Assembly (NCBI RefSeq): GCF_002285265.1
Contig: NZ_NSJB01000001.1
Coordinates: forward strand, 744,001-808,000
Reading direction: 5' to 3'
From: Vandammella animalimorsus
Lineage (GTDB): Bacteria; Pseudomonadota; Gammaproteobacteria; Burkholderiales; Burkholderiaceae_C
DNA: 64,000 nt
The notes under the pieces were generated by a model, which had not been told where the DNA came from, did no database searches, and saw only the letters and a list, made by a program, of their open reading frames with translations. A program made the translations under genes and the position numbers. Of the stretch, positions 2,506 to 62,849 are shown piece by piece. The first letter of the stretch is position 1, and each line of letters starts with the position of its first letter.

Positions 2506-2519
2506 GCGCCTGCTCAAAG
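2506..2519 (+). repeat. Single end of the GAGCCTGTTCAAA repeat family
   Basis: The bases GCGCCTGCTCAAAG follow directly on the TAA stop of the upstream gene. The sequence matches the terminal repeat of the 165 bp family seen at 20061 and 62687, with one or two changes. Confidence 0.6.
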
Positions 2520-2560
2520 CGCCTTGCCGCAGCCGCATTCTGCGGGCCACGGCAAGGCGC
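2519..2560. repeat. 11 bp inverted repeat downstream of ttrA
   Basis: The arms GCGCCTTGCCG and CGGCAAGGCGC enclose a loop of about 20 bases. There is no T-run, so this is a stable RNA 3' hairpin rather than a classical terminator on its own. Confidence 0.6.
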
Positions 2561-2606
2561 CAGCAAGCTGCCAGCAAGCCGCCAACAAGGGCGGCAGACA
2601 AAAAAG

Positions 2607-2633
2607 CAAGCGGCCCGCATGGGCCGCTTTTTC
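2607..2633. terminator. Rho-independent terminator between ttrA and ppsA
   Basis: The stem AGCGGCCC/GGGCCGCT has loop GCAT, followed on the plus strand by TTTTTC and preceded by an A-rich stretch. It can therefore serve both convergent genes. Confidence 0.8.
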
Positions 2634-2647
2634 ATGGCTGCTCTTTG

Positions 2648-2695
2648 AGAGCCTGCTCAGAATCTCCGTCGCACCGAGATCGTTGAACAGGCTCT
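2648..2695. repeat. Short 48 bp copy of the repeat family with both ends
   Basis: It begins AGAGCCTGCTCAG and ends TTGAACAGGCTCT, the two inverted ends of the family, with only about 22 bases between them. It lies five bases downstream of the ppsA stop codon (minus strand). Confidence 0.7.
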
Positions 2696-2700
2696 GTGCG

Positions 2701-5100
2701 TCAGCCGGCCTTCTTGGCCAGTTGGTTCCAGGTGCTGACCACGCTGTCGGGGTTCAGCGAGATCGAGGAGATGCCCTGGTCTGCCAGCCATTGCGCAAAA
2801 TCCGGGTGGTCGCTGGGGCCCTGGCCGCAGATGCCCACGTACTTGCCCTGATCGCGGCAGGCCTTGATGGCGCGGGCCAGCATGAATTGCAGCGCCGGGT
2901 CGCGCTCGTCGAAGTCGGCCGCCAGCAGCTCCAGGCCGGAGTCGCGGTCCAGGCCCAGCGTCAGCTGCGTCAGGTCGTTGGAGCCGATGGAGAAGCCGTC
3001 GAAGTGCTGCAGGAACTGCTCGGCCAGGATGGCGTTGCTGGGCACCTCGCACATCATGATCAGGCGCAGGCCGTGCTCGCCGCGCTTGAGGCCGTTCTTG
3101 GCCAGCAGTTGCTCGACAGCGGCGGCCTGGCCCAGCGTGCGCACGAAGGGCACCATGATTTCCACGTTGGTCAGGCCCATGTCCTCGCGCACGCGCTTGA
3201 GGGCCTGGCATTCCATCTCGAAAGCGGCGCCAAAGTCCTCGCTGATGTAGCGCGTCGCGCCGCGAAAGCCCAGCATGGGGTTTTCCTCTTCGGGCTCGTA
3301 GCGGCTGCCGCCGATGAGCTTGCGGTATTCGTTGCTCTTGAAGTCCGACAGGCGCACGATGACCGGCTTGGGCCAGAAGGCCGCAGCGATGGTGGCCACG
3401 CCTTCGGCCACTTTATCGACGTAGAAGGCGCGCGGGCTGGCGTGGCCGCGCGCGACGCTTTCCACGGCTTTTTTCAGGTCGGCATCGACGTTGGGATAAT
3501 CCAGGATGGCCTTGGGGTGCACGCCGATGTTGTTGTTGATGATGAACTCCAGCCGCGCCAGGCCCACGCCTTCATTGGGCAGCTGGGCGAAGTCAAAGGC
3601 CAGCTGCGGGTTGCCCACGTTCATCATGATCTTGGTGCCGATGGCGGGCATTTCGCCGCGCTGCACTTCGGTGACCTCGGTCTCCAGCAGGCCGTCGTAA
3701 ATCTTGCCGGTGTCGCCCTCGGCGCAGCTGACGGTGACCAGCGCGCCGTCCTTGAGCCTGGCCGTGGCATCGCCGCAGCCGACCACGGCCGGGATGCCCA
3801 GCTCGCGCGCGATGATGGCCGCATGGCAGGTGCGCCCGCCGCGGTTGGTGACGATGGCGCTGGCGCGCTTCATCACCGGCTCCCAGTTGGGGTCGGTCAT
3901 GTCGGTCACCAGCACGTCGCCGGGCTGAACTTTTTCCATCTCGGCCACGTCGCTGACCAGGCGCACCGGGCCGGTGCCGATCTTCTGGCCAATGGCGCGC
4001 CCTTCGCTGAGCACCTGGCCGGTGCCCACCAGCTTGTAGCGCTGCTCGGCCCGGCCCTTTTGCTGGCTTTTGACGGTCTCCGGGCGGGCCTGCAGGATGT
4101 AGAGCTGGCCGTCGCCGCCGTCCTTGCCCCATTCGATGTCCATCGGGCGGCCATAGTGCTGCTCGATCACCAGGGCGTAGCGCGCCAGCTCCATCACCTC
4201 CTCATCGCTGAGGGCGTAGCGGTTGCGCTGCTCGGGCGGCACGTCCACGGTTTGCACCAAGCGGCCGCTGGCGGCCTTTTCCTCGGGCGTGGCAAACACC
4301 ATCTGGATCAGCTTGGAGCCCAGGTTGCGGCGGATCACGGCCTGCTTGCCCGCGCGCAGTGCGGGCTTGTGCACGTAGAACTCGTCCGGGTTCACGGCGC
4401 CTTGCACCACGGTCTCGCCCAGGCCGTAGCTGGCGGTGATGAAGACCACGTCCTCAAAGCCCGATTCGGTGTCGATGGTGAACATCACGCCAGCGGCGCC
4501 GGTGTCCGAGCGCACCATGCGCTGCACGCCGGCCGAGAGGGCCACCACGTCATGGGCAAAGCCCTTGTGCACGCGGTAGCTGATGGCGCGGTCGTTGTAG
4601 AGGCTGGCAAAGACTTCCTTGGTCTTGTCCAGCACGGCCTCGATGCCCACCACGTTCAGGAAAGTCTCCTGCTGGCCGGCGAAGGAGGCATCGGGCAAGT
4701 CCTCGGCCGTGGCCGAGGAGCGCACGGCAAACGAGGCCTGCGCATTGCCTGCGCTGAGCGTGGCAAAGGCCTCGCGGATGGCCTTTTCCAGCTCGGGCGG
4801 GAAGGGCTGGGCCTGGACCATGGCGCGGATTTGCGCGCCGGCCTCGGCCAGGGCGCGCACATCGTCCACGTCCAGCGCCGCCAGGCGCTGACTGATCTTC
4901 TCCGACAGGCCATCGTGCTTGAGAAACTCGCGGAAGGCATGGGCCGTGGTGGCAAAGCCGGTGGGCACGCGCACACCCTGCGGCAGCTGCGAGATCATCT
5001 CGCCCAGCGAGGCGTTCTTGCCGCCGACGACCTCGACGTCGCTCATCCTCAGGTTTTCAAACGGTACGACCAGGGCGGTCGCTGCAAAGCGTTCAGACAT
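2701..5100 (-). CDS. ppsA: Phosphoenolpyruvate synthase
   Basis: The enzyme makes PEP from pyruvate with ATP (giving AMP and phosphate) for gluconeogenesis in the cytoplasm. The 799-residue product has the expected order: an N-terminal ATP-grasp pyruvate-phosphate-dikinase domain ([14 protein letters not shown] near the start), the swivelling phosphohistidine domain with [14 protein letters not shown] (His near residue 426), and the C-terminal PEP/pyruvate-binding barrel with [14 protein letters not shown] and [17 protein letters not shown]. The start at 5100 gives [19 protein letters not shown], the usual N-terminus; a longer open frame to 5472 has no family support. The PpsR-type kinase/phosphatase gene often found divergent to ppsA in proteobacteria is not here; a multicopper oxidase occupies that side instead. 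Confidence 0.95.
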
Positions 5101-5515
5101 GGGAAGACTCCAGAAGTAAGAAAACGGTGTGCAGGCCTGGCGCACTGCGCCGGGCTCTGGCCGCCGCGGCCTAGCCTGGGCCCCGGCGGCAGCCATGCCC
5201 ACGGCGGGCACAGGCCCATCGGCGCACGCTTTGCTTGTTCTGTTTTTGGTGCAGCACGCATGGTGGTTAAGGCCGTGAGAAAGCAGGCGGGGCAGGCAAA
5301 TATCGGCAAATCCGTGGCCCGGCAGCCCCCAGGCACTGCCTGTGCGTGGGGCCGCCAGCCAAAGCGGCTTATTGTAGTGGGCGCTTCTGGCCTGCGCGCC
5401 GGCAACTGCCAGCGGGGCCACCGCCAAGATGGCGCACAATCCGGGGCCATCCGCAGGCTGGCAGCTCGACACTGCGCCACACAGGACATCTGCCCTTTTC
5501 CACCGATTCCCTCAC
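5101..5515. other. 415 bp divergent intergenic region, no gene seen
   Basis: This separates divergent ppsA and the multicopper oxidase gene and must hold both promoters. A TACAAT hexamer on the minus strand (5373-5378) is a possible -10 for ppsA, but no good -35 stands 17 bases before it. No convincing ORF, RNA or repeat was found. Confidence 0.4.
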
Positions 5516-7184: not shown

Positions 7185-9359
7185 ATGCGCCATTCACGCT
7201 CCACCCAACGGCCAGCGGCCCGCCCCGCGGCGCTGCTGATGAGCCTGCTGGCAGCCAGCCCCTGGGCCTTGGCGGCCGACCCCGTGCAAGTCGATTCCTA
7301 CCGTGGCTGGGGCCATGAAGGCCCGATGCAGCCGCCGGCCAGCAACAACGTCAACGCCCCGCGCTGGCTGCCTGGCAAGGCGCTGGAGCCCTACTACGAC
7401 AACATCCCGCGCCTGGATTCGGCCAACCCATCCGCAGGCACGCCCGAAGCGCGTCTGGCCGCCCTGCAGCGGCTGCTGGCCCACGCCACGCCGCCGGGCG
7501 GCAATGCGGTCGATTCCGGCGTTACCGGCGCCCCGGCGGCCGAGGCCGGCACCACGCTGATCAAGACCCTGCCCTCGCTGAACATCCCCAGTGGGGCCAA
7601 TGTGCTGTGCGAATACAACCGCGCCGGCGGCACCTGGCCCCAGGCCGGCGAGGCAGCCTGCAAGAACGGCATCGAAGGCGCTGTGATGTACGTGGCCGTA
7701 CACCTGCCCGCAGCGGGCTACAAGCTGCGCGTGCAGCAGGGCAACGACGGCGCGCTGATTGACGCCAACCGCGACGGCGGCGTGCACTACCGCCTGCTGG
7801 ATTACAGCCAGAAACTGGCCATCGGCGCCACCATCGGCACGCCCCAGGGCGGTTACGACGCGCCCAATTCCGCCGCGCTGCAAGAAGGGCTGTACAACCT
7901 GCGCGTGGCCTGGAACAACTGGGGCTCGGACGCAAACCTGAACGTGCAATGGGTCACCCCAGGCGGCGCGATCGAAGACATTCCGCCCAGCGCCCTGTTC
8001 GACCCCAGCGACCCGGCCACCTACATCGACGCCGTCGATGACGACTACACCAGCACCCCCATTCCGGCAGGCGTGGCCGCCACCATCGGGCCGGTATTGG
8101 CCAACGACAGCGTCAACCGCTCCCAGGCCACGCAAGCCAACGTGGCCAGCGCGGAGCTGACCGCCACCGTACCCGGCATCACCCTGAACGCCGATGGCAC
8201 GCTCGCCGTGGCCGGCACCACTGCCGTTGGCACCCACACGCTGAGCTACAAGATCTGCAACGCCGGCACAAAGCCCGATCCCCTGTGCGACACCGCCACC
8301 ATCAAGGTACGCATCGACCCGGACATCGATCCGCAGCCCGATAGCGGCAGCGCCAGCGCCGGCACCGCCAAACCCGATGCCGTGCCCAACATCGCCGCCA
8401 ATGACTTCGTCAACGGCCAGCCCGCCACGCTGGGCACAGGCGGCAATGCCACCGTGGCCACGGTCGGCGCCTGGCCCGCTGGCGTCACGCTTGACCCGAA
8501 CACGGGCGCCGTTGGCACCACGGCGGCCACGCCGGCGGGCGTGCACACGCTGGACTACAAGCTGTGCGACCGCGCAACGCCCACGCCCAATTGCCAGGAC
8601 AGCACGATCACGCTGACGGTCAATACCAGCATCGCGCCAACGCCCGACAGCGGCAGCGCCACCGCCGGCACCGCCAAGCCCGATGCCGTGCCCAACATCG
8701 CCGCCAATGACCGCATCAACGGCCAGCCCGCCACGCTGGGCGCCGGCGGCAATGCCACCGTGGCCACGGTCGGCGCCTGGCCCGCTGGCGTCACGCTTGA
8801 CCCGAACACGGGCGTCGTCGGCACCACGGCGGCCACGCCGGCTGGCGTGCACACGCTGAACTACAAGCTGTGCGACCGCGCCATGCCCACGCCCAATTGC
8901 ACCGACAGCACGATCACGCTGACGGTCTCGGCAACGCCTGTGGCCGCTGCGGACGACGTTCGCCCGCAGGCCCTGCCCGCCGGCACGGACGCCATCGTGG
9001 TCAACAACATCGTCCAAAACGACACCATCAATGGCCAGCCCGCCACGCTGGGCACCGGCGGCAATGCCACGGTTTCCATGGTGGGGACTTGGCCTGCGGG
9101 CATCACACTGGATGCGAACACGGGCGAAGTGCGCATGGCCGCATCGGTGCCTGCAGACAACTACACGCTGCAATACCAGCTGTGCGATCGCAGTACACCT
9201 GCCCAGTGCGTGCAGGCTGCGATCCGCTTCACGGTGAGCGCCGGCCCAGCGCCAGTGCCCGGCAATGCCACGCCCGTGCCCACCCTGGGCCATTGGATGC
9301 TGTGGCTGCTGAGCCTGGCCACGGCCGCCCTGGGGCTGGGCCGCCTGCGCCGCTTCTGA
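7185..9359 (+). CDS. Secreted repeat protein with IPTL-CTERM sorting signal
   Basis: A 724-residue surface or exported protein of unknown function. The start at 7185 follows AAAGGAGA at the right distance and opens an Sec-type signal (ALLMSLLAASPWALAA). The N-terminal 300 residues resemble no family I recognise. Residues from about 385 to 690 form three tandem modules of about 102-104 residues, each with NGQPATLG, GGNATV, WPAGVTLD, NTG and LCDR landmarks, built like Ig/cadherin-type adhesive domains; the first two are nearly identical even at DNA level. The C-terminus VPTLGHWMLWLLSLATAALG plus a basic GRLRRF end is an IPTL-CTERM signal, which exosortase systems recognise and cleave. No exosortase is in the window. 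It follows the oxidase gene by 139 bp, with a terminator after it. Confidence 0.8.
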   Translation: MRHSRSTQRPAARPAALLMSLLAASPWALAADPVQVDSYRGWGHEGPMQPPASNNVNAPRWLPGKALEPYYDNIPRLDSANPSAGTPEARLAALQRLLAHATPPGGNAVDSGVTGAPAAEAGTTLIKTLPSLNIPSGANVLCEYNRAGGTWPQAGEAACKNGIEGAVMYVAVHLPAAGYKLRVQQGNDGALIDANRDGGVHYRLLDYSQKLAIGATIGTPQGGYDAPNSAALQEGLYNLRVAWNNWGSDANLNVQWVTPGGAIEDIPPSALFDPSDPATYIDAVDDDYTSTPIPAGVAATIGPVLANDSVNRSQATQANVASAELTATVPGITLNADGTLAVAGTTAVGTHTLSYKICNAGTKPDPLCDTATIKVRIDPDIDPQPDSGSASAGTAKPDAVPNIAANDFVNGQPATLGTGGNATVATVGAWPAGVTLDPNTGAVGTTAATPAGVHTLDYKLCDRATPTPNCQDSTITLTVNTSIAPTPDSGSATAGTAKPDAVPNIAANDRINGQPATLGAGGNATVATVGAWPAGVTLDPNTGVVGTTAATPAGVHTLNYKLCDRAMPTPNCTDSTITLTVSATPVAAADDVRPQALPAGTDAIVVNNIVQNDTINGQPATLGTGGNATVSMVGTWPAGITLDANTGEVRMAASVPADNYTLQYQLCDRSTPAQCVQAAIRFTVSAGPAPVPGNATPVPTLGHWMLWLLSLATAALGLGRLRRF
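8338..9236 (+). repeat. Three tandem ~306-312 bp repeats within the IPTL-CTERM gene
   Basis: Units begin near 8338, 8644 and 8950. The offset between units 1 and 2 is 306 bases (102 codons) and between 2 and 3 about 312. Units 1 and 2 are almost identical over most of their length, consistent with a recent duplication; unit 3 is more diverged. The period keeps the reading frame. Confidence 0.8.
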
Positions 9360-9381
9360 AAGACTTGAGGGTCTTCTGACC

Positions 9382-9417: not shown

Positions 9418-9491
9418 TGCTGGCCCGTGCGTTAGCGCAGTTTCGATTCTGATGAAGACATTTCCTGCAAGCGCCGCCTTCTCTCGTTCTC

Positions 9492-9607
9492 GTCACACCC
9501 GCGAAGGCGGGTGTCCAGTCGTAACGCTGACGGGGGAAGCGCTGCCGTTGGCCAATCGCCCTCTCGTGCGCAAGGGTGGCGCTGGATGCCCGCCTTCGCG
9601 GGCATGA
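9492..9607. repeat. Inverted pair of REP-type palindromes
   Basis: Two 26-27 bp units built on the core CCCGCGAAGGCGGG, one at 9492-9518 (GTCACACCCGCG...GTCCAG) and the other inverted at 9582-9607 (CTGGATGCCCGCC...ATGAC), 63 bases apart. Each is a hairpin in itself and the pair folds into a larger one, the arrangement of a REP/BIME cluster. Confidence 0.75.
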
Positions 9608-9703
9608 CGAAAGCGACCTGCGAGATGGCGATGCCAGTCAGCGGCCAGGTCTTGGATTTGTCAACGTTCAAGCAGAACACGCTCTAAGCCCGCGGGCGGG
9701 CGC

Positions 9704-10696: not shown

Positions 10697-10712
10697 GACT
10701 TTGAACAGGCTC
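10697..10712 (-). repeat. Single end of the GAGCCTGTTCAAA repeat family
   Basis: On the minus strand the antiporter stop TAA is followed with no gap by GAGCCTGTTCAAAGTC. It lies in the 28 bp between that stop and the next start codon. Confidence 0.75.
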
Positions 10713-12206
10713 TTACAGGTACCAGAGCAAGGTCTGCAGCATGAACAGCGGCGTGAGGATGCACACGGCCCATGCCACGTAGCCGAAGAAGCTGGGCATG
10801 GGCACGCCGCGGTGCTCGGCGATGGCCTTGACCATCAGGTTCGGGGCGTTGCCGATGTAGCTCAGCGCGCCCATGAACACCGCCCCGGCGGAGATGCCCG
10901 TCAGCGTGGCCGCCAGCGTGGTCGTGAGCGTCTGCGCATCGCCGCCGGCGGAGTTGAAGAACACCAGGTAGGTCGGGGCATTGTCCAAAAAGCCGCTGAG
11001 CACGCCGGTGGCCCAGAAGTACATGGCCGGGATGGGCTGACCATCGGCGCCGGTGACGGCCTGCACCACGGGCGCGAACGGGCCATGCACGCCCGCCTGC
11101 AGCATGGCGATGACCGGGATGATGGTCAGGAAGATGCCGGCAAAGAGCTTGGCGACCTCCAGCATTGGCTCCCAGTTGAACTGGTTCGATTCGTGGATGT
11201 GGCGCGCGGTGAGCTTGAGCGAGGCCAGCGTGATGCCCACAAAGCCCAGATCGCGCAGCAGGCTTTGCAGGCCGACCTCGGTGCCCATGATGTCGAAGGT
11301 GATGCCCGGCTTCCAGATGCCGCTCATCAGCACCAGCGCGACGATGCCGGCCAGCCAGAAGAAGTTCGCGCTGCCTTCGATGCGCAGGCTGTCGCTGTCG
11401 GTGGGCGTGGGATCAAAGCGCGAGCGCCCCTCGGTGCGGTAGAACCAGCTGTCGAGCAGGTAGAAGATCACCAGCAGCGCCACCACCAGGAACAGCGTCT
11501 CGGCCCAGATGTGCTGCATGGTCCAGAAAAACGGCACCCCCTTGAGAAAGCCCAGGAACAGCGGCGGATCACCCAGCGGCGTGAGCGAGCCGCCGATGTT
11601 GGAGACTAAAAAGATGAAGAACACCACCACGTGCACCCGGTGCTTGCGGTCGTCGTTGGCGCGCAGCAGCGGGCGGATCAGCAGCATCGAGGCGCCAGTG
11701 GTGCCCATGAGGCTGGCCAGCAGCGTGCCCAGCGCCAGGATGGCGGTATTGAGCGCCGGGGTGCCGCGCAGGTTGCCGCGCAGATAAATGCCGCCCGAGA
11801 CGGTGAACAAGGCCGTCAGCAGCAGCACGAAGGGGATGTACTCGGCCAGCAGCGCATGCACCACATTGGCCAGCGCCGCATGCCAGCCGTGGAGCACGGC
11901 AAAGGGCAGCAAAAAGGCCAGCGCCCAGGCCGCCGTGATCTTGCCGTAATGCCCGTGCCACAGCCTGGGCGCCAGCAACGGCAGGATGGCGATGGACAGC
12001 AGCACGCCGGCAAACGGCACGCCCCACCACAGGCCCAGCGCCGCGCCATCCAGGCTGGCCGCCTGCGCGGCACCGGGCAGCAAAGCCCAGCAGGCCAGCA
12101 GCCAGCAAAGCAGGCGCGCGCCCAGCGCCCGAGCGGTATCGGGCTTGGGGGCGCACTGGCAGCGGCGGGCAAATGGCAAAGGCATCAGGGGCAATGAGGC
12201 TGGCAT
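10713..12206 (-). CDS. Sodium:proton antiporter / citrate-transporter-like membrane protein (CitMHS_2 type)
   Basis: A 497-residue inner-membrane protein of the ion-transporter superfamily with about 11-12 hydrophobic segments. Typical family text includes GVPFAGVLLSIAILPLLAP near the N-terminus, GTTGASMLLIRPLLRAN, SNIGGSLTPLGDPPLFLGF and ALSYIGNAPNLMVKAIAE near the C-terminus; the two half-repeats with discontinuous helices are recognisable. The first segment ends in PGAAQAA and could be a cleaved signal or the first helix. The start at 12206 follows a weak GAGA; the frame is open 23 codons upstream, and an ATG at 12185 is also possible. Proteins like this are usually annotated as sodium:proton antiporters, but no member-specific residue settles ion or substrate. 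Confidence 0.75.
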   Translation of the reverse strand: MPASLPLMPLPFARRCQCAPKPDTARALGARLLCWLLACWALLPGAAQAASLDGAALGLWWGVPFAGVLLSIAILPLLAPRLWHGHYGKITAAWALAFLLPFAVLHGWHAALANVVHALLAEYIPFVLLLTALFTVSGGIYLRGNLRGTPALNTAILALGTLLASLMGTTGASMLLIRPLLRANDDRKHRVHVVVFFIFLVSNIGGSLTPLGDPPLFLGFLKGVPFFWTMQHIWAETLFLVVALLVIFYLLDSWFYRTEGRSRFDPTPTDSDSLRIEGSANFFWLAGIVALVLMSGIWKPGITFDIMGTEVGLQSLLRDLGFVGITLASLKLTARHIHESNQFNWEPMLEVAKLFAGIFLTIIPVIAMLQAGVHGPFAPVVQAVTGADGQPIPAMYFWATGVLSGFLDNAPTYLVFFNSAGGDAQTLTTTLAATLTGISAGAVFMGALSYIGNAPNLMVKAIAEHRGVPMPSFFGYVAWAVCILTPLFMLQTLLWYL

Positions 12207-16246: not shown

Positions 16247-16738
16247 ATGGCGATCGTTGTCAATAAACCTCTTCCTGAGTTTGAAGCCAGCGCAACTGGC
16301 GGTGTGACGGTGAGCAACACCTCACACAACGGCCAGATCATGATTCTTTATTTCTATCCCAAGGACAATACGCCCGGCTGCACGACCGAGGCCATGCAGT
16401 TTCGCGACAAGTACGACAAGTTCACCAAGCTCGGCGCGGTGGTGTTTGGCGTCTCGCGCGACAACATGAAGTCGCACGATGGCTTCAAGGAAAAGCTGGA
16501 GCTGCCCTTCGAGCTGATTGCCGACACCGAGGAGAAGATGTGCCACATGTTCGGCGTGGTCAAGAACAAGATCATGTACGGCAAAAAGGTCAAGGGCATC
16601 GAGCGCAGCACCTTCCTGGTCGCCCCGGACGGCACGCTGGCGCAGGAGTGGCGCGGCCTGAAGGTGCCCGGCCACGTCGATGAAGTGCTCAAGGCCGTCA
16701 AGGCCCTGAAGAAAGCCACGGAAAAACAGGCCGCATAA
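16247..16738 (+). CDS. bcp: Thiol peroxidase, Bcp/PrxQ-type peroxiredoxin
   Basis: A 163-residue cytoplasmic thioredoxin-fold peroxidase reducing hydroperoxides. The peroxidatic cysteine is Cys45 in PKDNTPGCTTEAMQF. The resolving cysteine of E. coli Bcp at position 50 is replaced by Met here; the only other cysteine is Cys99 (EEKMCHMFGV), which E. coli Bcp also has but does not need. The enzyme therefore probably works as a 1-Cys or intermolecular type. A GAGAGAAACTGATAG segment precedes the ATG. The stop TAA is followed at once by a 73 bp copy of the repeat family, then ppa. Confidence 0.9.
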   Translation: MAIVVNKPLPEFEASATGGVTVSNTSHNGQIMILYFYPKDNTPGCTTEAMQFRDKYDKFTKLGAVVFGVSRDNMKSHDGFKEKLELPFELIADTEEKMCHMFGVVKNKIMYGKKVKGIERSTFLVAPDGTLAQEWRGLKVPGHVDEVLKAVKALKKATEKQAA

Positions 16739-16811
16739 AGCGCCTGTTCAATCTCTCTGCGCGGCGGGCAATGCTTGTTGCCCACTCGCGCCGGGATCTT
16801 GAACAGACTCC
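16739..16811. repeat. 73 bp shortened copy of the repeat family
   Basis: It starts AGCGCCTGTTCAATCTC directly after the bcp TAA and ends GATCTTGAACAGACTCC. Read from its right end on the minus strand it matches the first ~40 bases of the 62687 copy (TGTTCAA.ATC.CGGCGCGAGTGGGCAA.AAGC), then jumps to the other inverted end, so the middle of the element is deleted. Confidence 0.75.
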
Positions 16812-17508: not shown

Positions 17509-17523
17509 GGAGCCTGTTCAAAC
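17509..17523. repeat. Single end of the repeat family overlapping a stop codon
   Basis: GGAGCCTGTTCAAAC on the plus strand. The TGA stop of the minus-strand cyclase-family gene is the TGA inside TTTGAACAGGCTCC, so the element end supplies the last codons and the stop. Confidence 0.65.
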
Positions 17524-18318
17524 CAAGGTCATGACACGCGCCAGGCCGCCAGAGCAGCCCGCGATCTTGGCCACCGCCACCACCAGCGTGGCCCCCGCGG
17601 CCGGGACTTGCTCCAGATTGGTGATGGCCTCCAGCCCCCAGCGCCCCGATGGCAGCCACATGCGATGGGCGGCAAAGTCTGCCGAGGCGCCATAGTCCAG
17701 CGACAAGGTGTCCACGGCGATGCCCGCTGCCTGGCTGTTTTCCATCAGGTACTGCACGGCATCGGGGTGAAAGCCCGGAAAGTGCATCACGCCCGCCTCG
17801 TCGGCATTGCGAAAGCGCTCGCTCGCAGCCAGTTTGTCCCAGCCCGACATCATGGCCACGCAGGCCTGGGGAGGCAGCGGACCGTGCGCAGCTTCCCAGG
17901 CCTGGATGTCCTCGGGCGTGAGCTGTGCGTCGGCATCGGCAGCGGCCCGCTCGCGGATGTCCACCACGCACAGGGGCACGACCAGATTGCCCACGGGGAT
18001 TTCCGCGATCGACTGGCCATCGGCGCTGAAATGCAGCGGCGCATCCACGTGCGTGCCAATGTGCTCGTGCAGGCGCAGCTCGCTGAGGTTGAAGCCGTGC
18101 TCGTCAAAGTGGTAGCGCGCCTGGCGAAACAGCTCCTGCTGGCCGAAAAAGGTCGGGAAGTCCTCATCCAGCGCATGGGTCATGTCCAGCACCATCTCAT
18201 GGCCGCTGCGCAGCGCCGCCGGGGCCTGGGCCACCTGGGCATCCACCTCTGCCTGGCTATGCCGCCCCTGCGCCAGCATTTGTTTCTTGACGGTTTCAAT
18301 GACGCACGCATGGCACAT
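17518..18318 (-). CDS. Cyclase-family metal-dependent hydrolase (KynB/PF04199-like)
   Basis: A 266-residue protein of the family that includes kynurenine formamidase KynB and isatin hydrolase. The metal motif HxGTHxDxP is intact (His86, His90, Asp92). An N-terminal extension of about 40 residues starts MCHACVIETVKKQM, whose CxxC could bind metal. The start at 18318 has a strong AAGGAGGGCAGCC upstream. Tryptophan-catabolism neighbours (kynA, kynU) are absent, and the length exceeds KynB (about 210 residues), so the substrate is uncertain. The C-terminal end was set by the repeat-family end overlapping its stop. Confidence 0.75.
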   Translation of the reverse strand: MCHACVIETVKKQMLAQGRHSQAEVDAQVAQAPAALRSGHEMVLDMTHALDEDFPTFFGQQELFRQARYHFDEHGFNLSELRLHEHIGTHVDAPLHFSADGQSIAEIPVGNLVVPLCVVDIRERAAADADAQLTPEDIQAWEAAHGPLPPQACVAMMSGWDKLAASERFRNADEAGVMHFPGFHPDAVQYLMENSQAAGIAVDTLSLDYGASADFAAHRMWLPSGRWGLEAITNLEQVPAAGATLVVAVAKIAGCSGGLARVMTLV

Positions 18319-20060: not shown

Positions 20061-20225
20061 AGAGCCTGTTCAAAGTCTTGGCGCGAGCGGGCAACAAGTG
20101 GTTTGGGATGGGCTGCAAGGCGCAAAACGCAGCCATAGCTGGGGCTATGGCGAGGCTTTGCGGGCGCAGCAGACCCCGCCCAAATCCACTTTCTTGCCAG
20201 CGTGCAGAGACTTGGAACAGGCTCT
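20061..20225. repeat. Full 165 bp copy (A) of the inverted-end repeat element
   Basis: Ends are AGAGCCTGTTCAAAGTCT and AGACTTGGAACAGGCTCT, inverted and nearly matching over 18 bases. The interior shares long identical blocks with the copy at 62687, including TTTGGGATGGGCTGCAAGGC and CATAGCTGGGGCTATGGCGA; the latter can fold as CATAGC/GCTATG. No ORF is carried. This copy lies between the divergent starts of nnr and yggT, so it can influence either promoter. No clear target duplication is seen. Confidence 0.85.
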
Positions 20226-22050: not shown

Positions 22051-22066
22051 GGCCCTGTTCAAAGAT
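22051..22066 (+). repeat. Single end of the repeat family
   Basis: GGCCCTGTTCAAAGATCC begins eight bases after the pdxH stop codon; it differs from the consensus end at one or two positions. Confidence 0.5.
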
Positions 22067-30566: not shown

Positions 30567-30869
30567 GGCAAAGGCAAAAAAAGTCGGCCCGCCGCGCCTA
30601 TGCCTACAGTTGCGGCTGCGGTGGGCAAACCGAGCATTATGCGGCCGGATGCACGCCCGCTCTGCAGCGCCGGCCCAAAGGCTTGGCGCGAATGGCCGCC
30701 AATGGATGAACGACAGGTGGACGATGGGCCGCAAGGCCGCCCCGCCTTGCAGGCACCACGCAAACATGGCTGGGGCCATTGGCGAGGCGGTGCGGGCCGC
30801 TGCAGGCCGCACCGATCCACGCCCTCATCCGCTTGATGGCCCCATCGCGCCAGGGCTTTGAACAGGCGC
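30567..30869. other. 303 bp between dnaB and the HAD gene
   Basis: About two thirds of it is the decayed repeat-family copy at 30672-30869. The rest, next to the HAD start, must contain the promoter of the HAD-Rieske-sppA operon; AATGCTCGGTTTGCC-type sequence on the minus strand offers no clear sigma-70 site. Confidence 0.4.
30672..30869 (-). repeat. Decayed ~198 bp copy (C) of the repeat element
   Basis: On the minus strand it starts GCGCCTGTTCAAAG immediately after the dnaB stop TAA. Further in it keeps the family landmarks in order: CCTCGCCAATGGCCCCAGCCAT (compare CCTCGCCATAGCCCCAGCTAT), a CTTGCGGCCCATC block, and ATTCGCGCCAAGCCTTTGGGCC near the far end. Individual bases differ widely, so it is an old copy. 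Confidence 0.6.
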
Positions 30870-32342
30870 TTACATCGGCCCCGTGTCTTCGTGCAGGCTG
30901 AGGTTCTCGAAGCGGGTCTGGTCTTTCTGGAAGTACAGGTTCACGGTGCCGGTGGGGCCGTTGCGCTGCTTGCCGATGATGATCTCGGCCTGGTTGGGGG
31001 CGGTGCTTTTTTCCTTGTTGTAGTAGTCGTCGCGGTAGATGAACATGATGACGTCGGCGTCCTGCTCGATGGCGCCCGATTCGCGCAGGTCGCTCATCAT
31101 GGGGCGCTTGTCGGTGCGCTGCTCGACGCTGCGGTTGAGCTGCGAGAGCGCAATCACCGGGCATTGCAGCTCCTTGGCCAGCATCTTCAGCCCGCGCGAG
31201 ATCTCGCCCAGCTCGGTGGCGCGGTTTTCGTCCGAGGAATTGCCCGAGCCGCTCATGAGCTGCAGGTAGTCCACCACGATCAGGCCCAGCTTGCCGCACT
31301 GGCGCGCCAGGCGGCGCGCGTTGGCGCGCAGCTCGGTGGGCGTCAGTCCCGGGGTCTCGTCGATGTGCAGCGAGACGTTGCGCAGCCGCTCGACCGCCTC
31401 GGTCAGGCGCGGCCATTCCTCGTCGAGCAGCTTGCCGGTGCGCAGGCGCTGCTGGTTGATGCGGCCAATGGAGCCGACGATGCGCACCGCCAGCTGCGAG
31501 GCGCCCATTTCCATCGAGAAGATGGCCACGGGCATGCTCTCGCGCAGCGCCACGTGCTCGGCGATGTTGATGGCAAACGCGGTTTTGCCCATCGAAGGGC
31601 GCGCCGCCAGCACGATCAGGTCGCCCGGCTGCAGGCCGCTGGTCATGCGGTCCAGATGGCTGAAGCCCGTGGGCACGCCGGTGATGTCGTGCGGGCTTTG
31701 CGCCATTTCCTCAACCTGGTCCAGCAGGTTCACCACCAGGCCGTCGAGCGATTGAAAGCCCTGCTTCATGCGCGAGCTTTCCTCGGCGATGCCGAAGATC
31801 TTGGCCTCGGCCTCGTCCAGGATGCGGCTGACCTCGCGCCCCTTGGGGCTGAAGGCGTTGGAGGCGATCTCGTCGCTGGCGGCAATCAGCTTGCGCAGGA
31901 TGGCGCGCTCACGAATGATTTCCGCATAGCGGCGGATGTTGGCGGCGCTGGGCACGTACTGCGCCAGCGAGTTCAGATAGGCGATGCCGCCCACTTCCTC
32001 GGCCTTGCCGATGCCGCGCAGGTGCTCGAACACCGTCACCACGTCCGCCGGGCGGTCGTTCTCCAGCAGCGCGGCGATGGCCTGGAAGATTTGCTGGTGC
32101 TCGCTGCGGTAGAAGTCCGACTGCTTGAGCAGGTCGGAGACGCGCTCCCAGACCTGGTTGTCCAGCAGCAGTCCGCCGAGCACGCTTTGCTCGGCCTCCA
32201 CCGACTGCGGCGGCAGGCGCAGATCGGCCACCTGCGGATCAGCGCCCTGCCCCAGCGGGCCCGGGGGCATGCCGCCGCGCACCGGCTGCTCGGAAAAATC
32301 CATCACTTCGACGCCCATGGCGCCACTGCCCTTCTCATCCAT
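30870..32342 (-). CDS. dnaB: Replicative DNA helicase DnaB
   Basis: The hexameric 5'-3' helicase of the replisome, 490 residues. The N-terminal primase-interacting domain (LRLPPQSVEAEQSVLGGLLL) is followed by the RecA-like ATPase with Walker A ARPSMGKTAFA, Walker B LIVVDYLQLMSG and the C-terminal REIGRLNRSVEQRTDKRPMMSDLRESG-type block (here SQLNRSVEQRTDKRP). A 45-residue leader precedes the domain; starts at 32342 and 32318 are both possible. It follows rplI with 270 bases between, in the common order rpsF-rpsR-rplI-dnaB. Confidence 0.95.
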   Translation of the reverse strand: MDEKGSGAMGVEVMDFSEQPVRGGMPPGPLGQGADPQVADLRLPPQSVEAEQSVLGGLLLDNQVWERVSDLLKQSDFYRSEHQQIFQAIAALLENDRPADVVTVFEHLRGIGKAEEVGGIAYLNSLAQYVPSAANIRRYAEIIRERAILRKLIAASDEIASNAFSPKGREVSRILDEAEAKIFGIAEESSRMKQGFQSLDGLVVNLLDQVEEMAQSPHDITGVPTGFSHLDRMTSGLQPGDLIVLAARPSMGKTAFAINIAEHVALRESMPVAIFSMEMGASQLAVRIVGSIGRINQQRLRTGKLLDEEWPRLTEAVERLRNVSLHIDETPGLTPTELRANARRLARQCGKLGLIVVDYLQLMSGSGNSSDENRATELGEISRGLKMLAKELQCPVIALSQLNRSVEQRTDKRPMMSDLRESGAIEQDADVIMFIYRDDYYNKEKSTAPNQAEIIIGKQRNGPTGTVNLYFQKDQTRFENLSLHEDTGPM

Positions 32343-41229: not shown

Positions 41230-41368
41230 GCGGCTGGATGTAAAGCTCGGCGCGAAGGGGCGGCAGCGGCTTGGGCCCGGCTGCAAGGCGCAAAGGCGGC
41301 GCAATGGCGCAGCACCGCAGGCCAGCCCGATCTGCTGCGTGGCCTGCCGTGCAAGGCATCCGAATGCG
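41230..41368 (+). repeat. Decayed copy (D) of the repeat element filling a convergent gap
   Basis: Between two stop codons (TAA at 41227-41229 and, on the other strand, the codon at 41369-41371) the sequence retains CTCGGCGCGAAGGGG, GCGGCTTGGG..CGGCTGCAAGGCGCAAA and, near the right end, GCCGTGCAAGGCATCCGAA in the same order as copy B (62687), with the central hairpin lost. Confidence 0.55.
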
Positions 41369-48817: not shown

Positions 48818-48832
48818 CTTTGAACAGGCTCT
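48818..48832 (-). repeat. Single end of the repeat family upstream of the SDR gene
   Basis: CTTTGAACAGGCTCT on the plus strand, 18 bases before the SDR start codon. On the minus strand it reads TGAGAGCCTGTTCAAAG; no coding frame known to end at that TGA was found. Confidence 0.6.
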
Positions 48833-52935: not shown

Positions 52936-53012
52936 GCGCCTGTTCAAAACAAAACAAAGCAAAAGCCCGCGCGAGCGGGCTTTTGCTTTGTTTTGTTTTG
53001 TTTTGAACAGGC
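52936..53012. terminator. Bidirectional terminator framed by repeat-family ends
   Basis: The outer arms GCGCCTGTTCAAAAC and GTTTTGAACAGGC are the two ends of the repeat family. Inside, AAAGCAAAAGCCCGC pairs with GCGGGCTTTTGCTTT around GCGA, a classical terminator in both directions. The right end touches the glmM stop codon. It separates the convergent lipoprotein and glmM genes. Confidence 0.8.
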
Positions 53013-54344
53013 TCAGCCCTGCAGCACGCTGGCCAGGCGCTCGGCCCAGTGTTGCGCCAAGGCCGGATCCTGGGCTTCGACCATCAGGCGCAGCACCGGC
53101 TCGGTGCCGCTGGGGCGCACCAGCAGGCGGCCCTGGCCTTGCAGCGCAGCCTCGGCTTCGCGCATGGCGTTTTGGAAGGCCGCGTGCTGTTGCCAGGCGT
53201 CGCGGTCGGCCAGGCGCACGTTGATCATGGTCTGCGGGAACAGCTGCACGCCCTGCAGCGCCTGGGCCACGCTGTGGCCGCTGCGCACCACTTGCTGCAG
53301 CACCTGCAGCGCGCTGATGATGCCGTCGCCGGTGGTGTGCCGGTCCAGCGCCAGTAGGTGGCCGGAGCTTTCGCCGCCGAGCACCCAGCCATTGCGCTGC
53401 AGGGCCTCGATGACGTAGCGGTCGCCGACCTTGGCGCGCTGCATCGGGATGCCCAGGCGGGCAAAGGCCTGTTCGATGGCCAGGTTGGTCATCAGCGTGC
53501 CGACTACGCCCTGCACCGGCTCGCCGGCCTCCAGCCTGGCGCGCGCCATCAGGTACAGCAGCTCATCGCCATTGAACAGCCGCCCGCTGGCGTCAACCAG
53601 TTGCAGGCGGTCGGCATCGCCATCGAGCGCAATGCCGTAGTCGGCGCCGCTGGCGCGCACGCGCTCGATCAGCGCCTGCGGCGCGGTGGCGCCCACGTCC
53701 TGGTTGATGTTGAAGCCATCGGGCTCAGCCCCCATGGCGATGACTTCGGCGCCCAGCTCGTGAAACACCTTGGGCGCGCACTGGTAGGCCGCGCCGTGGG
53801 CGGCATCGACCACCAGCTTCAGCCCCTTGAGGCTGAGCTCGGTGGGGAAGGTGCTTTTGCAGAACTCGATGTAGCGCCCGGCCGCGTCGGTCATGCGCCG
53901 CGCCTTGCCCAGCGCGGCCGAGGGGGCCCACTGCGGCGGCAGGGCCAGGCCGCGCTCGACCTCTTCCTCCCACTCATCGGGCAGCTTGCTGCCCTGGGCG
54001 CTGAAGAATTTGATGCCGTTGTCCTCAAAGGGGTTGTGGCTGGCGCTGATGACCACGCCCAGATCGGCGCGCACGGCGCGCGTCAGGTAGGCCACGGCCG
54101 GGGTCGGGATGGGGCCGAGCAGCACCACGTCCACGCCGGCGGAGTTGAAGCCCGATTCCAACGCGCTTTCGAGCATGTAGCCAGAGATGCGCGTGTCCTT
54201 GCCGATGAGCACCGTCGCGGCGGCGTTGCCGGCCTTGAGCAGGCGGCCCACGGTGTGGCCCAGGTGCAGGATGAAGTCGGGGGTGATAGGGCTGCGACCG
54301 ACGGTGCCGCGAATGCCGTCGGTGCCGAAATACTGTTTGCTCAT
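53013..54344 (-). CDS. glmM: Phosphoglucosamine mutase
   Basis: Converts glucosamine-6-P to glucosamine-1-P for UDP-GlcNAc synthesis. The 443-residue enzyme has the phosphoserine loop [16 protein letters not shown], the metal-binding DGDADR region, GGESSGH and the C-terminal [15 protein letters not shown]. Begins [16 protein letters not shown]. Follows folP by 100 bases on the same strand, as in the conserved ftsH-folP-glmM order. Confidence 0.97.
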
Positions 54345-56698: not shown

Positions 56699-56706
56699 CC
56701 CAGTTC

Positions 56707-58644
<1,938 letters not shown>

Positions 58645-59011: not shown

Positions 59012-60892
59012 TCAACTGCTGGCGCACACGCGCAGCAGCTCTTGCCCGTAGGCGTCGAGCTTTTTCTGCCCCACGCCGGAGATGGCGCTGAGCGCCTGCA
59101 GGCTGCGGGGGTTTTCGCTGGCAATGGCCAGCAAGGTGGCATCGGCAAAGACCACGAAGGCCGGCAGCTGGTGCTGCTGGGCCACTTCGCGCCGCCAGGC
59201 CTTGAGCGCCTCAAAGCGCTGGCGGCTGGCATCGTCCAGCGCGGCCAGGCGCTCTTGGCGGCTTTGGCGCTCGCTGCCGCTCTGGGTGCCCTGGGCGGCG
59301 CTGCGCCGGGCCTGGCGCTCGATGCGGCGTAGCTGCAGCGGGCGCTGGCCGGCCAGCACGCTGCGGGCCGCCGGGCCCAGGCGCAGGGTGTTGAAGGCCT
59401 GGGCATCGGCCACAACGGCGTCGATGGCAATCAGCTGCCGCACGACGCTGCCCCATTCGCGCTCGCCGATCTCCTGGCCAATGCCGAAGGTGCTCAAGCC
59501 CTGGTGGCCGTATTGCTCGACCTTGGGCGTGGCCTTGCCGCGCAGAATGTCGATCAGGTGCCCCGCGCCGAAGTGAATGCCGCTTTTTTGCTGCACGCGG
59601 TAGATGCAGCTGAGCAGCTTGCGCGCCGCATCGGTGGCGTCCCAGGTGGCCGGCGGGTTCAGGCAGTTGTCGCAATTGCCGCAGGGCTGGGCCTGCTCGC
59701 CAAAGTAAGCCAGCAGGCGCTGGCGGCGGCATTCGGTGGTCTCGGCCATGGCCAGCAGCGCATCGAGTTTGGCGCGCATGACCTGCCGATAGGCCTCGCT
59801 GGCCGGGCTTTGCGGGTCGTCGATCATGCGCCGCTGGTTGACCACGTCGGCCAGGCCATAGGCCATCCAGGCATCGGCGGGCTCGCCGTCGCGCCCGGCA
59901 CGGCCCGTCTCCTGGTAGTAGCCCTCGATGTTCTTGGGCATGTCCAGATGCGCCACGAAGCGCACGTCGGGCTTGTCGATGCCCATGCCAAAGGCGATGG
60001 TGGCCACCATCACCAGCGCGTCCTCGCGCAGAAAGCGGTCCTGATGGCGCTGGCGCACATCGGGCGGCAGGCCGGCGTGGTAGGGCAAGGCGTCAATGCC
60101 CTGCTCCAGCAGCCACTGGGCGGTGTCCTCAACCTTCTTGCGGCTTTGGCAATAGACGATGCCGGCATCGCCCTCGTGCTCGTCCTCGATGAAGCGCAGC
60201 AGCTGGCGGCGCGCATCGCTCTTTTCCACCACTTGGTAGAAGATGTTGGGGCGGTCGAAGCTGCTGATGAACTGCCGCGCCTGCTGCAACTGCAGGCGCT
60301 CGATGATGTCGGCGCGGGTGATGGCATCGGCCGTGGCCGTCAGCGCAATGCGCGGCACCGTGGGGTAGCGCTCGTGCAGCAGGCTGAGCTGGCGGTACTC
60401 GGGGCGAAAGTCATGGCCCCATTGGCTCACGCAGTGCGCCTCGTCGATGGCAAACAGCGCCAATTGGCCGCGTTGGTACAAGCCATCGAGAAACTCCAGA
60501 AAGCCCGGCGTGGTGATGCGCTCGGGCGCCACGTACAGCAGGCAGGTCTGGCCACGCCAGGCGCGCGCCTGCACGGCCTGGGCCTGGGAAAAGTCCAACG
60601 CCGAATGCAGGCCATCGGCGGCCACGCCCACCTCCTGCAGCGCGCGCACCTGGTCGTGCATCAGCGCAATCAGCGGCGAGACCACGATGCTCATTCCCTT
60701 GCCCTGCTCGCGCCGGGCAATCGCCGGGATCTGGTAGCACAGCGACTTGCCGCCGCCAGTGGGCATCAGCACCAGCGCATCGCCACCAGCTATCACGGTG
60801 TCGATGATCTGGGCCTGCAGCCCGCGAAACTGCGGGTAGCCAAACACCTGTTGCAGGATTTGCAGCGCCTGCGGGCAATCGGAACTGGACAC
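59012..60892 (-). CDS. recQ: ATP-dependent DNA helicase RecQ
   Basis: A 626-residue superfamily 2 helicase: Walker [23 protein letters not shown] box ([18 protein letters not shown]), aromatic-rich loop, helicase C domain with [18 protein letters not shown] and GRAGRDG, RecQ zinc-binding domain ([12 protein letters not shown] and CGNCDNC), winged-helix and C-terminal HRDC domain. The start is GTG at 60892; an in-frame TGA two codons upstream rules out a longer start. Divergent from the AEC transporter gene. Confidence 0.95.
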
Positions 60893-61234
60893 GGCTCAAC
60901 CCCAAGCGGCACGGCCGCCAGGCCGCGCCCACATCAAAAAAGCCCGCCATTATGAAAGCATCGCGCCCAGCGCCAAAGGCTCATGGCGCAGCGTTGGCCA
61001 GATTCGGCTTGCGCAGCGGTTTGCCAAGGCACAGGCCGCAGATGCAAGGCGCAAATACGCGCAAGTGCGCGCAAGCTCGGGCGCCTTGCACACCGCTTCA
61101 ACGCAGCAGCTGCGCAGGCTTGAGCAAAAACACCGCCGCAATACGGCAAGCCCAACAGCCCCTACACTTGCCGCCGCGCTGGCGCAGCGCCCCGCTTGCG
61201 CCGCCTTGCCATCCATGCCCACGGTGCCCCTCGC
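60893..61234. other. 342 bp divergent region between recQ and an AEC transporter gene
   Basis: No further gene or repeat was recognised. It must hold both promoters; no good -35/-10 pair was found. Confidence 0.35.
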
Positions 61235-62221
61235 GTGTCCTCCATTCTTGCCATCATCTTCCCCGTGTTTGGCCTGATCCTGGCCGGCTGGCTGTGCCGC
61301 CGCCTGCGGGTGCTGGGCCCGGCCGCCGCTGCCGAGCTGGGGCGCTTTGTGGTCTGGCTGGCCCTGCCGGCCATGCTGTTTCTCATCATGGCCAAGGCCG
61401 ACTGGCGCCAGCTGTACCAGCCGGCCTTCACGGCCACCTTCGCGCTGGCCGGCCTGGGCCTGTTTGCCGCCGTGGCCGCCGTGCAGCGCTGGCGCGGCCG
61501 CAGCCTGGCCGATGCCAGCGTCGATGCCCTCGCCGCGGCCTACCCCAACACCGGCTACATGGGCTTTCCGCTGACCTTTTTGCTCGCCGGCCAGGCCTCG
61601 CTGGTGCCCACCACCATCGCCACCATGCTGGTGGTGTGCGTGATGTTCGGCCTGGCCATCTTGCTGATCGAATACGCCCGCCTGCCCGCCGGGCAGCGCC
61701 AGCCCTGGCTGCTGCTGCCGCGCATCACCTGGTCGCTGCTGAAAAACCCCTTGATCGCCGCGCCGCTGGCTGGCGCCCTGTATGCCGCCACCGGCTGGCC
61801 GCTGCCGGTCAGCGGCGCACAATTGCTGCAACTGCTCGCGGGCGCGGCCAGCCCCTGCGCGCTGGTCAGCCTGGGGCTGTTCCTGGCCAGCCCGGCCGCA
61901 TCGGCCGGCAGCGCCGCGCCCCAGGCGCTGGGCGACCGGCAGGCCAGCGCACTGGCCTGGCAATTGACGGCCGTCAAACTCCTGCTGCTGCCGCTGCTGA
62001 CCTGGGCGCTGGGCGCCTGGGTCTTCCAGCTGCCGGCCACGCCGCTGCTGCTGGCCGTGCTGCTGGCCGCCCTGCCCACCGGCACCGGCCCCTACATGCT
62101 GGCCGACCTGTACGGGCGCGACGGCAGCGTGACGGCGCGCACCGTGCTGTTTTCCACCATCGCCTCAGTGGCCACACTGGCCGCCCTGATCCACTGGATG
62201 GGGCCTGCGGCGATGGAATAG
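61235..62221 (+). CDS. AEC-family (auxin efflux carrier-like) permease
   Basis: An inner-membrane transporter of about 328 residues with ten hydrophobic segments and the AEC pattern: IIFPVFGLILAGWLCRRL at the start, AYPNTGYMGFPLTFLLAGQ, ASPCALVSLGLFLA and PTGTGPYMLADLYGRD near the C-terminus. Bacterial members export malonate, malate or other organic acids; the substrate is not known here. The start was set at the GTG 61235 (MSSILAII); a TTG at 61196 is further upstream. Sixteen bases separate it from the low-GC small gene. Confidence 0.85.
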   Translation: MSSILAIIFPVFGLILAGWLCRRLRVLGPAAAAELGRFVVWLALPAMLFLIMAKADWRQLYQPAFTATFALAGLGLFAAVAAVQRWRGRSLADASVDALAAAYPNTGYMGFPLTFLLAGQASLVPTTIATMLVVCVMFGLAILLIEYARLPAGQRQPWLLLPRITWSLLKNPLIAAPLAGALYAATGWPLPVSGAQLLQLLAGAASPCALVSLGLFLASPAASAGSAAPQALGDRQASALAWQLTAVKLLLLPLLTWALGAWVFQLPATPLLLAVLLAALPTGTGPYMLADLYGRDGSVTARTVLFSTIASVATLAALIHWMGPAAME

Positions 62222-62237
62222 GCACGGAGGCGCACCA

Positions 62238-62534
62238 ATGGCTGTCAATCAGGTTCTGGCCCCTGGCGTGGCTGTGGGCGATGTCGTACTGCTGAAGAAA
62301 ATCCCTGATTGGCTGGTCTCAGATTCCAGCCTGGAGGAATTCTTCCGATTCATGCGCTATATCGGGCGCAAATCGCTGGTCACGGAAATCGACCCATACG
62401 GCTATTACTGGCTTGGCTTTGGCAGCACGCAGCAAAGGCCGGATGGGGCCATCTATACCGGCGACTCTTTCTGTGTGACGGGCAATTGCATACAAAAATG
62501 CACCGACTTTGATTTCAATTGGCTTGAGCCATGA
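62238..62534 (+). CDS. Small hypothetical protein, low GC
   Basis: A 98-residue acidic protein with no signal or membrane segment. GGAGG at 62226-62230 gives a proper ribosome binding site. The text DPYGYYWLGFGSTQQRPDG and YTGDSFCVTGNCIQ shows aromatic-rich beta strands. Composition is well below the neighbours (25/60 G+C in one line counted). Its size, acidity and isolation would fit an orphan immunity protein, but this is only inference. Its stop overlaps the next small ORF by four bases (ATGA). Confidence 0.6.
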   Translation: MAVNQVLAPGVAVGDVVLLKKIPDWLVSDSSLEEFFRFMRYIGRKSLVTEIDPYGYYWLGFGSTQQRPDGAIYTGDSFCVTGNCIQKCTDFDFNWLEP

Positions 62535-62635
62535 CCAGAGACAACAATCCAATGCTGCCCCCTCCTGATACCCATCAAAGGTTCAAATATTTCACGCAGG
62601 CCACTGAGGAACAGCAAGGCGCTACTGCCCACTGA
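62531..62635 (+). CDS. 34-residue small ORF coupled to the preceding gene
   Basis: It starts on the ATGA overlap with the 98-residue gene and ends at TGA 62633-62635, giving a hydrophilic peptide (begins MTRDNNPMLPPP). A terminator follows directly, so the two ORFs form a closed unit. Too short for family recognition; it may also be the decayed start of a longer gene. Confidence 0.4.
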   Translation: MTRDNNPMLPPPDTHQRFKYFTQATEEQQGATAH

Positions 62636-62643
62636 TTGACTGA

Positions 62644-62683
62644 GTCGATTTCAAACTTCGTTTTGAGATCGACTGGTTTTTTT
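62644..62683 (+). terminator. Terminator of the small low-GC unit
   Basis: GTCGATTTCAAA pairs with TTTTGAGATCGAC around CTTCG, followed by TGGTTTTTTT. It ends four bases before the full repeat copy. Confidence 0.85.
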
Positions 62684-62686
62684 CTT

Positions 62687-62849
62687 AGAGCCTGTTCAAA
62701 ATCTCGGCGCGAGTGGGCAAGAAGCGGTTTGGGATGGGCTGCAAGGCGCAAAACGCAGCCATAGCTGGGGCTATGGCGAGGCTTTGCAACGCAGCAGAGC
62801 GCCCAAATCCGCTCTCTTGACCGCCGTGCAAAGATTTTGAACAGGCTCT
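62687..62849. repeat. Full 163 bp copy (B) of the inverted-end repeat element
   Basis: Ends AGAGCCTGTTCAAAATCT and AGATTTTGAACAGGCTCT are perfect inverted repeats apart from the internal bases. The interior matches copy A at 20061 over long blocks, including TTTGGGATGGGCTGCAAGGC and CATAGCTGGGGCTATGGCGA. On the right it touches the stop codon of the next gene (minus strand TAA then GAGCCTG). TTA stands on both sides of GAGCC...GGCTC, a possible 3 bp target duplication. Confidence 0.9.

Follow-up and report, generated by a model that had tools for sequence, protein, structure and literature searches.

A small palindromic transposon of IS5 type adjoins stop codons in Vandammella animalimorsus and related genomes

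Background

Why should the ends of a repeat family lie directly against the stop codons of genes? The question is raised by a stretch of 64,000 nucleotides of Vandammella animalimorsus (RefSeq assembly GCF_002285265.1, contig NZ_NSJB01000001.1, positions 744,001 to 808,000), termed here the window, in which a sequence-only reading noticed copies of a short end sequence, GMGCCTGTTCAAA, at or near the stops of about ten genes. It proposed that insertion targets gene 3' ends, that the element acts in the formation or protection of mRNA 3' ends, or that replacement of gene ends was how it spread. The end sequence forms the terminal inverted repeats of a 161-bp palindromic, non-autonomous foldback transposon, a miniature inverted-repeat transposable element (MITE). 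It is highly probable that this MITE is moved by an insertion sequence (IS) of the IS5 family, and that targeting of TNA, preferably within CTNAG, explains its abutment to stop codons.

The repeat ends and the element they bound

Matches to GMGCCTGTTCAAA with up to two mismatches number 19 in the window, against 3.25 expected, a count reached in none of 100 shuffles, while genome-wide there are 58 exact ends and none for the reversed-pattern control. Eleven of the 58 lie directly 3' of a called stop codon, compared with 0.19 % of random non-coding positions (p 3e-19). This genome-wide comparison of end-to-stop distances, which the sequence-only reading had proposed, bears out its judgement that the abutment is too frequent for chance, as do the insertion events described below.

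Ends that face inward often pair across approximately 161 bp, one of them running on into AATCTCGGCGCGAGTGGGC and the other into AATCTTTGCACGGCGGTC, or close variants. The intact copy of the window (62688..62848, + strand) is an imperfect palindrome of 161 bp with GAGCCTGTTCAAAATC at both ends and a GC content of 58 %, against 68 % for the window. The same insertion is found in G007, the nearest relative compared, which mostly shares about 93 % identity with the window genome (G000) in this region. A search of G000 with the intact copy gave 63 matches, the first 40 of which are distinct places (the best 40 of 127 candidates) with 74-100 % identity over full or partial length; nearly all of the rest are the same places on the opposite strand, because the element is palindromic. 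It was matched in sixteen of the 40 genomes searched (own included), while a search of the PLSDB plasmids gave one partial match only. A profile search of loci fetched from five genomes, namely G000 and the related G005, G007, G008 and G009, distinguished at least 121 copies, 92 with two ends and 29 short of an end, the copies of the four relatives being taken from the listed matches of earlier, non-exhaustive searches. The element is thus 161 bp long and multicopy, has terminal inverted repeats and carries no transposase gene. Furthermore, identical 3-bp flanks accompany 64 of the 92 two-ended copies, and empty sites occur among relatives.

Insertion at TNA and the excess at stop codons

Intact copies are as a rule flanked by TNA on both sides. 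The identical flanks of the 64 copies are TGA (21), TCA (19), TTA (13), TAA (9) and TTG (2); the 62 of the form TNA represent 56 independent events (six repeat the same event), and the two TTG copies, which are one event, were excluded. When the empty sites were rebuilt by joining the flanks and genes were then called, 29 of the 56 events fell exactly on a stop codon, 26 were intergenic and one was coding. These loci hold 11038 background TNA sites, 7967 of them coding; of the 3071 non-coding sites, 292 (9.5 %) are stops. The stop excess over non-coding TNA sites is therefore 5.5-fold (p 7e-16). The ends abut stops mainly because insertion duplicates TNA, a pattern that TAA and TGA fit and only TAG among the stop codons does not. 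If the duplication filter is not applied, 39 of the 92 two-ended copies are in contact with a called stop (G000, 11/29; G007, 18/40; G005, 5/8; G009, 4/11; G008, 1/4), the stops being TGA (23) and TAA (16), with no TAG. The single coding insertion (G000 C1:641172-641333; L054 3973-4134) is located where a non-ribosomal peptide synthetase-like gene starts; the condensation-domain match of this gene covers the profile only from position 103 onward.

The target appears to extend beyond the three duplicated letters. The palindromic context CTNAG, with C before and G after the TNA, is found at thirteen of the 26 intergenic insertions compared with 6.5 % of the background, and at 13 % of background stops. 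Weighting by this motif lifts the expected stop share from 9.5 % to 16-18 %. With control sites drawn from the same intergenic stretch, 28 of 45 insertions are at the stop, against 11.8 expected unweighted and 19.1-21.6 motif-weighted; this control dropped ten of 55 events, one of them a stop insertion, in which the stretch exceeded 1200 bases or held no TNA stop. Most of the stop pattern is explained by the target letters together with the exclusion of coding sequence. The proposal that insertion favours gene 3' ends is thus correct as to the pattern, the cause of which is mainly the target sequence.

A candidate mobiliser and the proposed mechanism

The IS427 and IS1031 groups of the IS5 family make a 3-bp TNA duplication. 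An IS5-family element of 848 bp, with GARCCTGTTCAAAATCTTT ends that match those of the MITE, is found in G007 and G009. Nine of 30 transposase loci were inspected as whole IS copies, and five of these (one in G007, four in G009) measure 848 bp, have the GARCCTGTTCAAAATCTTT ends and are flanked by an identical TNA duplication. In one copy, DUF4096 and DDE domains are encoded in two neighbouring frames that match the IS5_3 transposase model. The DDE half scores above the cut-offs of both NF033580 (157.9 bits) and PF01609 (107.9 bits), while the N-terminal half matches PF13340 and taken alone stays below the cut-off of NF033580. DUF4096 matches occur in six of the nine genomes searched from the genus, and a search with the DDE half gave one G007 copy of 99 % identity and none in G000 or G008. 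Judged from these sequences, the 848-bp IS likely mobilises the MITE in trans. In three overlapping G009 loci (L209, L225 and L231; C1:437-4055), IS ends of this type are closely spaced and one copy has unequal flanks, which suggests nested or rearranged insertions.

In the mechanism proposed here, an IS5-family transposase would move the non-autonomous MITE in trans, cutting at TNA, best within CTNAG, and duplicating the TNA. The TAA and TGA stops would serve as fitting targets, since in these genomes the CTNAG context is commoner at them than at the remaining non-coding TNA sites, and selection would presumably remove insertions within coding sequence. An insertion on a stop codon would duplicate the stop, so that the end of the upstream gene is unchanged and the element begins at the first base past it. 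Copies would decay later, in many cases through loss of their interior, so that single ends or ends joined to each other stay behind next to the stop.

Several observations weigh against this explanation. Identical 3-bp flanks are absent from 28 of the 92 two-ended copies, which were excluded from the stop test, and the CTNAG motif was derived from just 26 intergenic sites. The genes were called with a codon-usage finder of our own, trained on the fetched G000 loci, which overlooked at least one abutting stop (G007_L134 5513), so that the 29 stop insertions are a lower count. A search for DUF4096 in the draft genome to which the window belongs found none, and of the five cleanly duplicated IS insertions, none coincides exactly with a called stop. 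The window element resembles the IS5-family ISs in its TNA duplication and short inverted ends, and in having a partner IS with DUF4096 and DDE domains in two frames. It differs in lacking a transposase, and the IS and the MITE have just 14-16 bp per end in common and nothing notable inside. Lastly, a 1.3-1.5-fold excess at stops is left unexplained by the motif and region controls (p 0.0003-0.003).

This residual excess is what would be expected if insertion were steered to the 3' ends of genes by a factor other than the target letters, be it the termination of transcription or translation, the DNA structure at gene boundaries or a host factor. Among the insertions 0-120 bases past a stop, 29 of 41 are exactly at the stop, where the motif predicts 46 % (p 0.001). 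Within 0-20 bases, however, the motif alone predicts 74 %, and 29 of 33 were found (p 0.05). Guidance by termination should also make use of TAG, which ends 39 of 510 called genes but is the stop at none of the 39 two-ended copies that touch one. This TAG deficit is a weak one (P about 0.05 by hand, with some of the 39 belonging to one event), and the test on 56 events excludes TAG by construction. Such steering is on balance considered unlikely.

The hairpin and its possible roles

Both strands of the element fold as one long hairpin, with energies of -96.4 and -91.9 kcal/mol (z -9.3 and -10.4; -9.25 for the -96.4 kcal/mol fold of 62688-62848). Within the genus, double compensatory changes outnumber those of each of 300 shuffles: 28 divergent copies have 64, where shuffles average 32, and all 92 copies have 80, against 17 in shuffles. 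Of these 80, 36 are at positions 3 and 14 of the ends, which distinguish subfamilies, and approximately 25 more are in the apical stem. Because so many are at two subfamily-marking positions, the within-genus double changes are not proof of an RNA function. Comparison with Rfam gave no matches in the window at the gathering score, and none at E values up to 0.1 in nine core-bearing loci.

The stability of this palindrome and the excess of compensatory changes, together with the cross-genus conservation of a structured core described below, would suit an element that is kept at stops as a helpful hairpin 3' untranslated region (3' UTR), blocking exonucleases or forming transcript ends. A relative at 52936-53014 (79 bp), between convergent genes, clearly fits the form of a terminator with a GC-rich stem and a T-run. 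In the intact copy, however, a loose terminator scan gave one weak internal stem of eight pairs followed by TGCGTTTTGC, and about one such site is expected in shuffles of the region. Furthermore, there is no bias in which element end faces the gene at stops (13:16), no excess of convergent neighbours (9/25, where 83 convergent and 392 tandem pairs would give about 30 %) and no difference in preservation between stop-abutting and intergenic copies (p 0.50), and copies decay by deletion. The role in 3'-end formation that the sequence-only reading had suggested thus finds no support in the tests of orientation, convergence and preservation or in the intact copy, whose terminator-like stem is weak, and retention as a beneficial 3' UTR is quite unlikely. 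A strand-specific role, or one tied to convergent genes, was ruled out by the orientation and neighbour counts.

A core shared across genera

In other genera the matches are confined to the middle of the element. With the 85-bp core (62722..62806, + strand) as query, matches were found in 78 of 200 sampled genomes of the family, representing 64 of 141 genera (own included). A phylum-wide search with a similar core from another genus matched four of 299 genomes (the window genome, two from the family and one from a different family of the order). The core is flanked by at least five types of ends (GARCCTGTTCA, GGCRACGCTGAACAAGTCCC, GGRNYCTCTKCACGAA, GGAACGYGTTTACG, GAGGYTGTGAGT, GGAACCTCTGAAYAACTCCC; loci L071-L094 and L237-L262). 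Outside the five genomes, an identical 3-bp duplication was found at two loci only (L073 and L089).

Across 35 aligned cores, fifteen of 22 pairs have changes on both sides, with 58 both-side change cells against ten in shuffles and 6-13 when the partners were slid, and several letters of the internal loops vary little or not at all. This covariation is strong, and it may reflect upkeep of the DNA palindrome, copying errors between the arms or selection on RNA. Counting as an element any core with an end pattern no more than 110 bases away gave 31 outside the five genomes, and in twelve of these such an end lies right at a called stop. L071 and L241 represent a single locus, and other genomes of the same genus contribute six of the 31, including three of the twelve. 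Among core elements of other genera only, eight of 24 abut a called stop, as called by the gene finder trained on this genus, and elements with other ends do land on TAG. That the core rather than the ends is the persistent unit, which moves between IS5-type ends through much of the family, is installed as a 3' UTR and has a selected DNA or RNA function, is a tentative and rather doubtful idea. If it were true, the core would be installed at stops because such IS5-type transposases target sequences that contain stop codons.

Gene ends and the decay of copies

An in-frame TAA or TGA within the duplication implies that the stop predates the insertion, and element-free relatives show the same codon in this role. 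The TAA stop with an element in G007_L126 is matched by TGA at the same codon in G000, the stops of G007_L127 and G007_L134 are found in G000 without the element, and the TGA at an insertion on G000 C12 is likewise present in G008 without one. In G007_L120, a young copy is inserted at a TAA beside an older copy that is also present in G000. A Pfam scan of ten abutting genes placed the end of a domain within 31 residues of the C-terminus in six (two thiolases, an FAD oxidase, an EngA-type GTPase, a class I tRNA synthetase and a TonB receptor). The other four (a solute-binding protein, a weak TPR match, an efflux protein and an MFS transporter) are uninformative on the C-terminus.

In a contrary case, a deletion in G007 fused a gene to a remnant end, giving the tail PHVNRP instead of the TF of G000. 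At a different site, G009 holds a 161-bp copy and G000 29 bp, consisting of two ends with three bases between. Spread of the element by replacing gene ends, which would suit the G007 remnant as well as the stop-spanning window site 17510-17522, is contradicted for duplicated copies and most improbable as a general account. It may apply to rare decayed copies, as the altered G007 gene end illustrates, and not to insertion itself. Chance proximity in a compact genome, which would fit the three of 19 window matches that lie within called genes (36354, 42325 and 53583; about the number chance gives), is already refuted by the eleven of 58 exact ends at distance 0 and the 29 of 56 events.

Copies and remnants in the window

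The intact copy is bordered by the TNA duplication at 62849..62851 (partner copy 62685-62687), which reads TTA on the + strand and TAA on the - strand, where it is also the stop codon of a weak gene call (62849-63310, -; score 15, no Pfam match). The zero-gap contact with a TAA reported at 62849 is thus right, with the element end at 62848. Those reported at three other places also hold. At 2506..2518 (+), a lone end with one mismatch directly follows the TAA of a molybdopterin-binding-domain gene ending at 2505; the sequences of G007 and G008 aligned to it show none. The lone end at 10700..10712 (-) is directly 3' of the TAA stop of a citrate-transporter-like gene (10713-12083, -), and is preserved in G007 and decayed in G008. 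The right end at 30857-30869 is directly 3' of the TAA stop of a DnaB-domain gene (30870-32342, -) and belongs to an old diverged copy (30674..30869, +; profile match to model positions 8-159, 38 bits). The contact reported at 16739, in turn, is one base off: the stop of an AhpC/TSA-family gene occupies 16736-16738, and a 71-bp end-to-end derivative (16740..16810, unstranded), with one mismatch in its end, starts one base beyond. This derivative is absent from G007 and G008, both of which have the same gene stop.

The second full-length copy (20062..20224, +; 163 bp, 88 % identity) has the flanks CAA and TAA, which are not an identical duplication, and only right-end parts remain at this place in G007 and G008. 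This case and the G009/G000 site described above suggest that the lone and end-to-end forms are mostly decay products. A 46-bp end-to-end derivative (2649..2694, unstranded), present in G007 and not in G008, ends near the ppsA-like stop as reported, but at six bases (stop 2701-2703, end 2694) rather than five. The terminator-like element at 52936..53014 (unstranded) has the family ends around (AAAAC)n and the GC-rich hairpin, and G007 is short of 10 bp of its AAAAC repeats. It overlaps the TGA stop of a phosphomannomutase-like gene (53013-54344, -), and this TGA includes the GA of the end, as had been read. Further remnants are a lone end after a TGA, upstream of a called gene start (48819..48831, -; altered form in G007), and a heavily decayed copy between convergent genes (41242..41359, +; profile 32 bits), also found in G007.

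Three other sites are less clear. An exact end sequence (17510..17522, +), through which a cyclase-like gene (17518-18246, -) reads outward, does hold the TGA stop of this gene, although an insertion is not required, G007 and G008 having the same TGA with a diverged flank; it may be a remnant or chance. The end eight bases past the pdxH-like stop (22051..22063, +) is at the distance reported but weak, with two mismatches, and is similar in G007 and G008. The decayed form reported beside hom is a faint trace, six bases of which are lacking in G007. These three may be due to chance or very old. An inverted repeat of a different family (CCCGCGAAGGCGGG) lies at 9484-9616, and a sequence like it occurs on G000 C3 at the stop-adjacent site that carries the MITE in G007_L127. 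Three direct repeats of about 298 bases (8324-9239) lie within the gene at 7239-9359.

Relation to known elements and significance

Bacterial MITEs have been summarised (PMC2229807), their functions and insertion preferences reviewed (PMC10969869), and the IS427 and IS1031 groups are mentioned in PMC2516522 and PMC7031236. In the available extracts of these and related sources, RUP, BOX, Correia/NEMIS and MITEPsy1 resemble the element described here in being shorter than 200 bp, with inverted ends, a target duplication, a strong hairpin and a proposed mobiliser IS with like ends. The duplicated target given for MITEPsy1, CTAG or YTAA (PMC3189936), also contains stop codons, and BOX, RUP and SPRITE are stated to be over-represented between convergent genes (PMC3049150). 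The window element differs from those MITEs in its GC content, which is below that of the window but not AT-rich, in that about half of its clean insertions are exactly on stops, and in a core that is common to unlike ends. The extract on QMITE2 of Coxiella describes a MITE found mainly in 3' untranslated regions, with one gene end altered in frame, and differs in giving variable duplications of 7-11 nt and in not describing exact stop targeting (PMC5896051). A stop codon as the duplicated target is not described for these MITEs in the portions at hand of PMC3049150, PMC2229807, PMC3189936, PMC5896051 and PMC10969869, and a search of open-licence papers found no account of stop-codon targeting by TNA elements. 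Elements of this kind are already known; what is new is an IS5-type MITE whose target rule puts it on stop codons, with a core that occurs across unlike ends.

A transposon that has a stop codon as its duplicated target can enter the last codon of a gene and leave the protein unchanged, and its target rule predicts where such elements accumulate and which genes escape. Matched genes that do or do not carry an identical structured 3' UTR occur here naturally and are suited to tests of 3'-UTR effects. That one core occurs with ends so different prompts the question which part of a MITE is conserved, and for what reason. If the core does persist as a unit that moves between IS5-type ends, it would provide many unrelated genes of the family with a ready-made 3' untranslated region from the first base after the stop.

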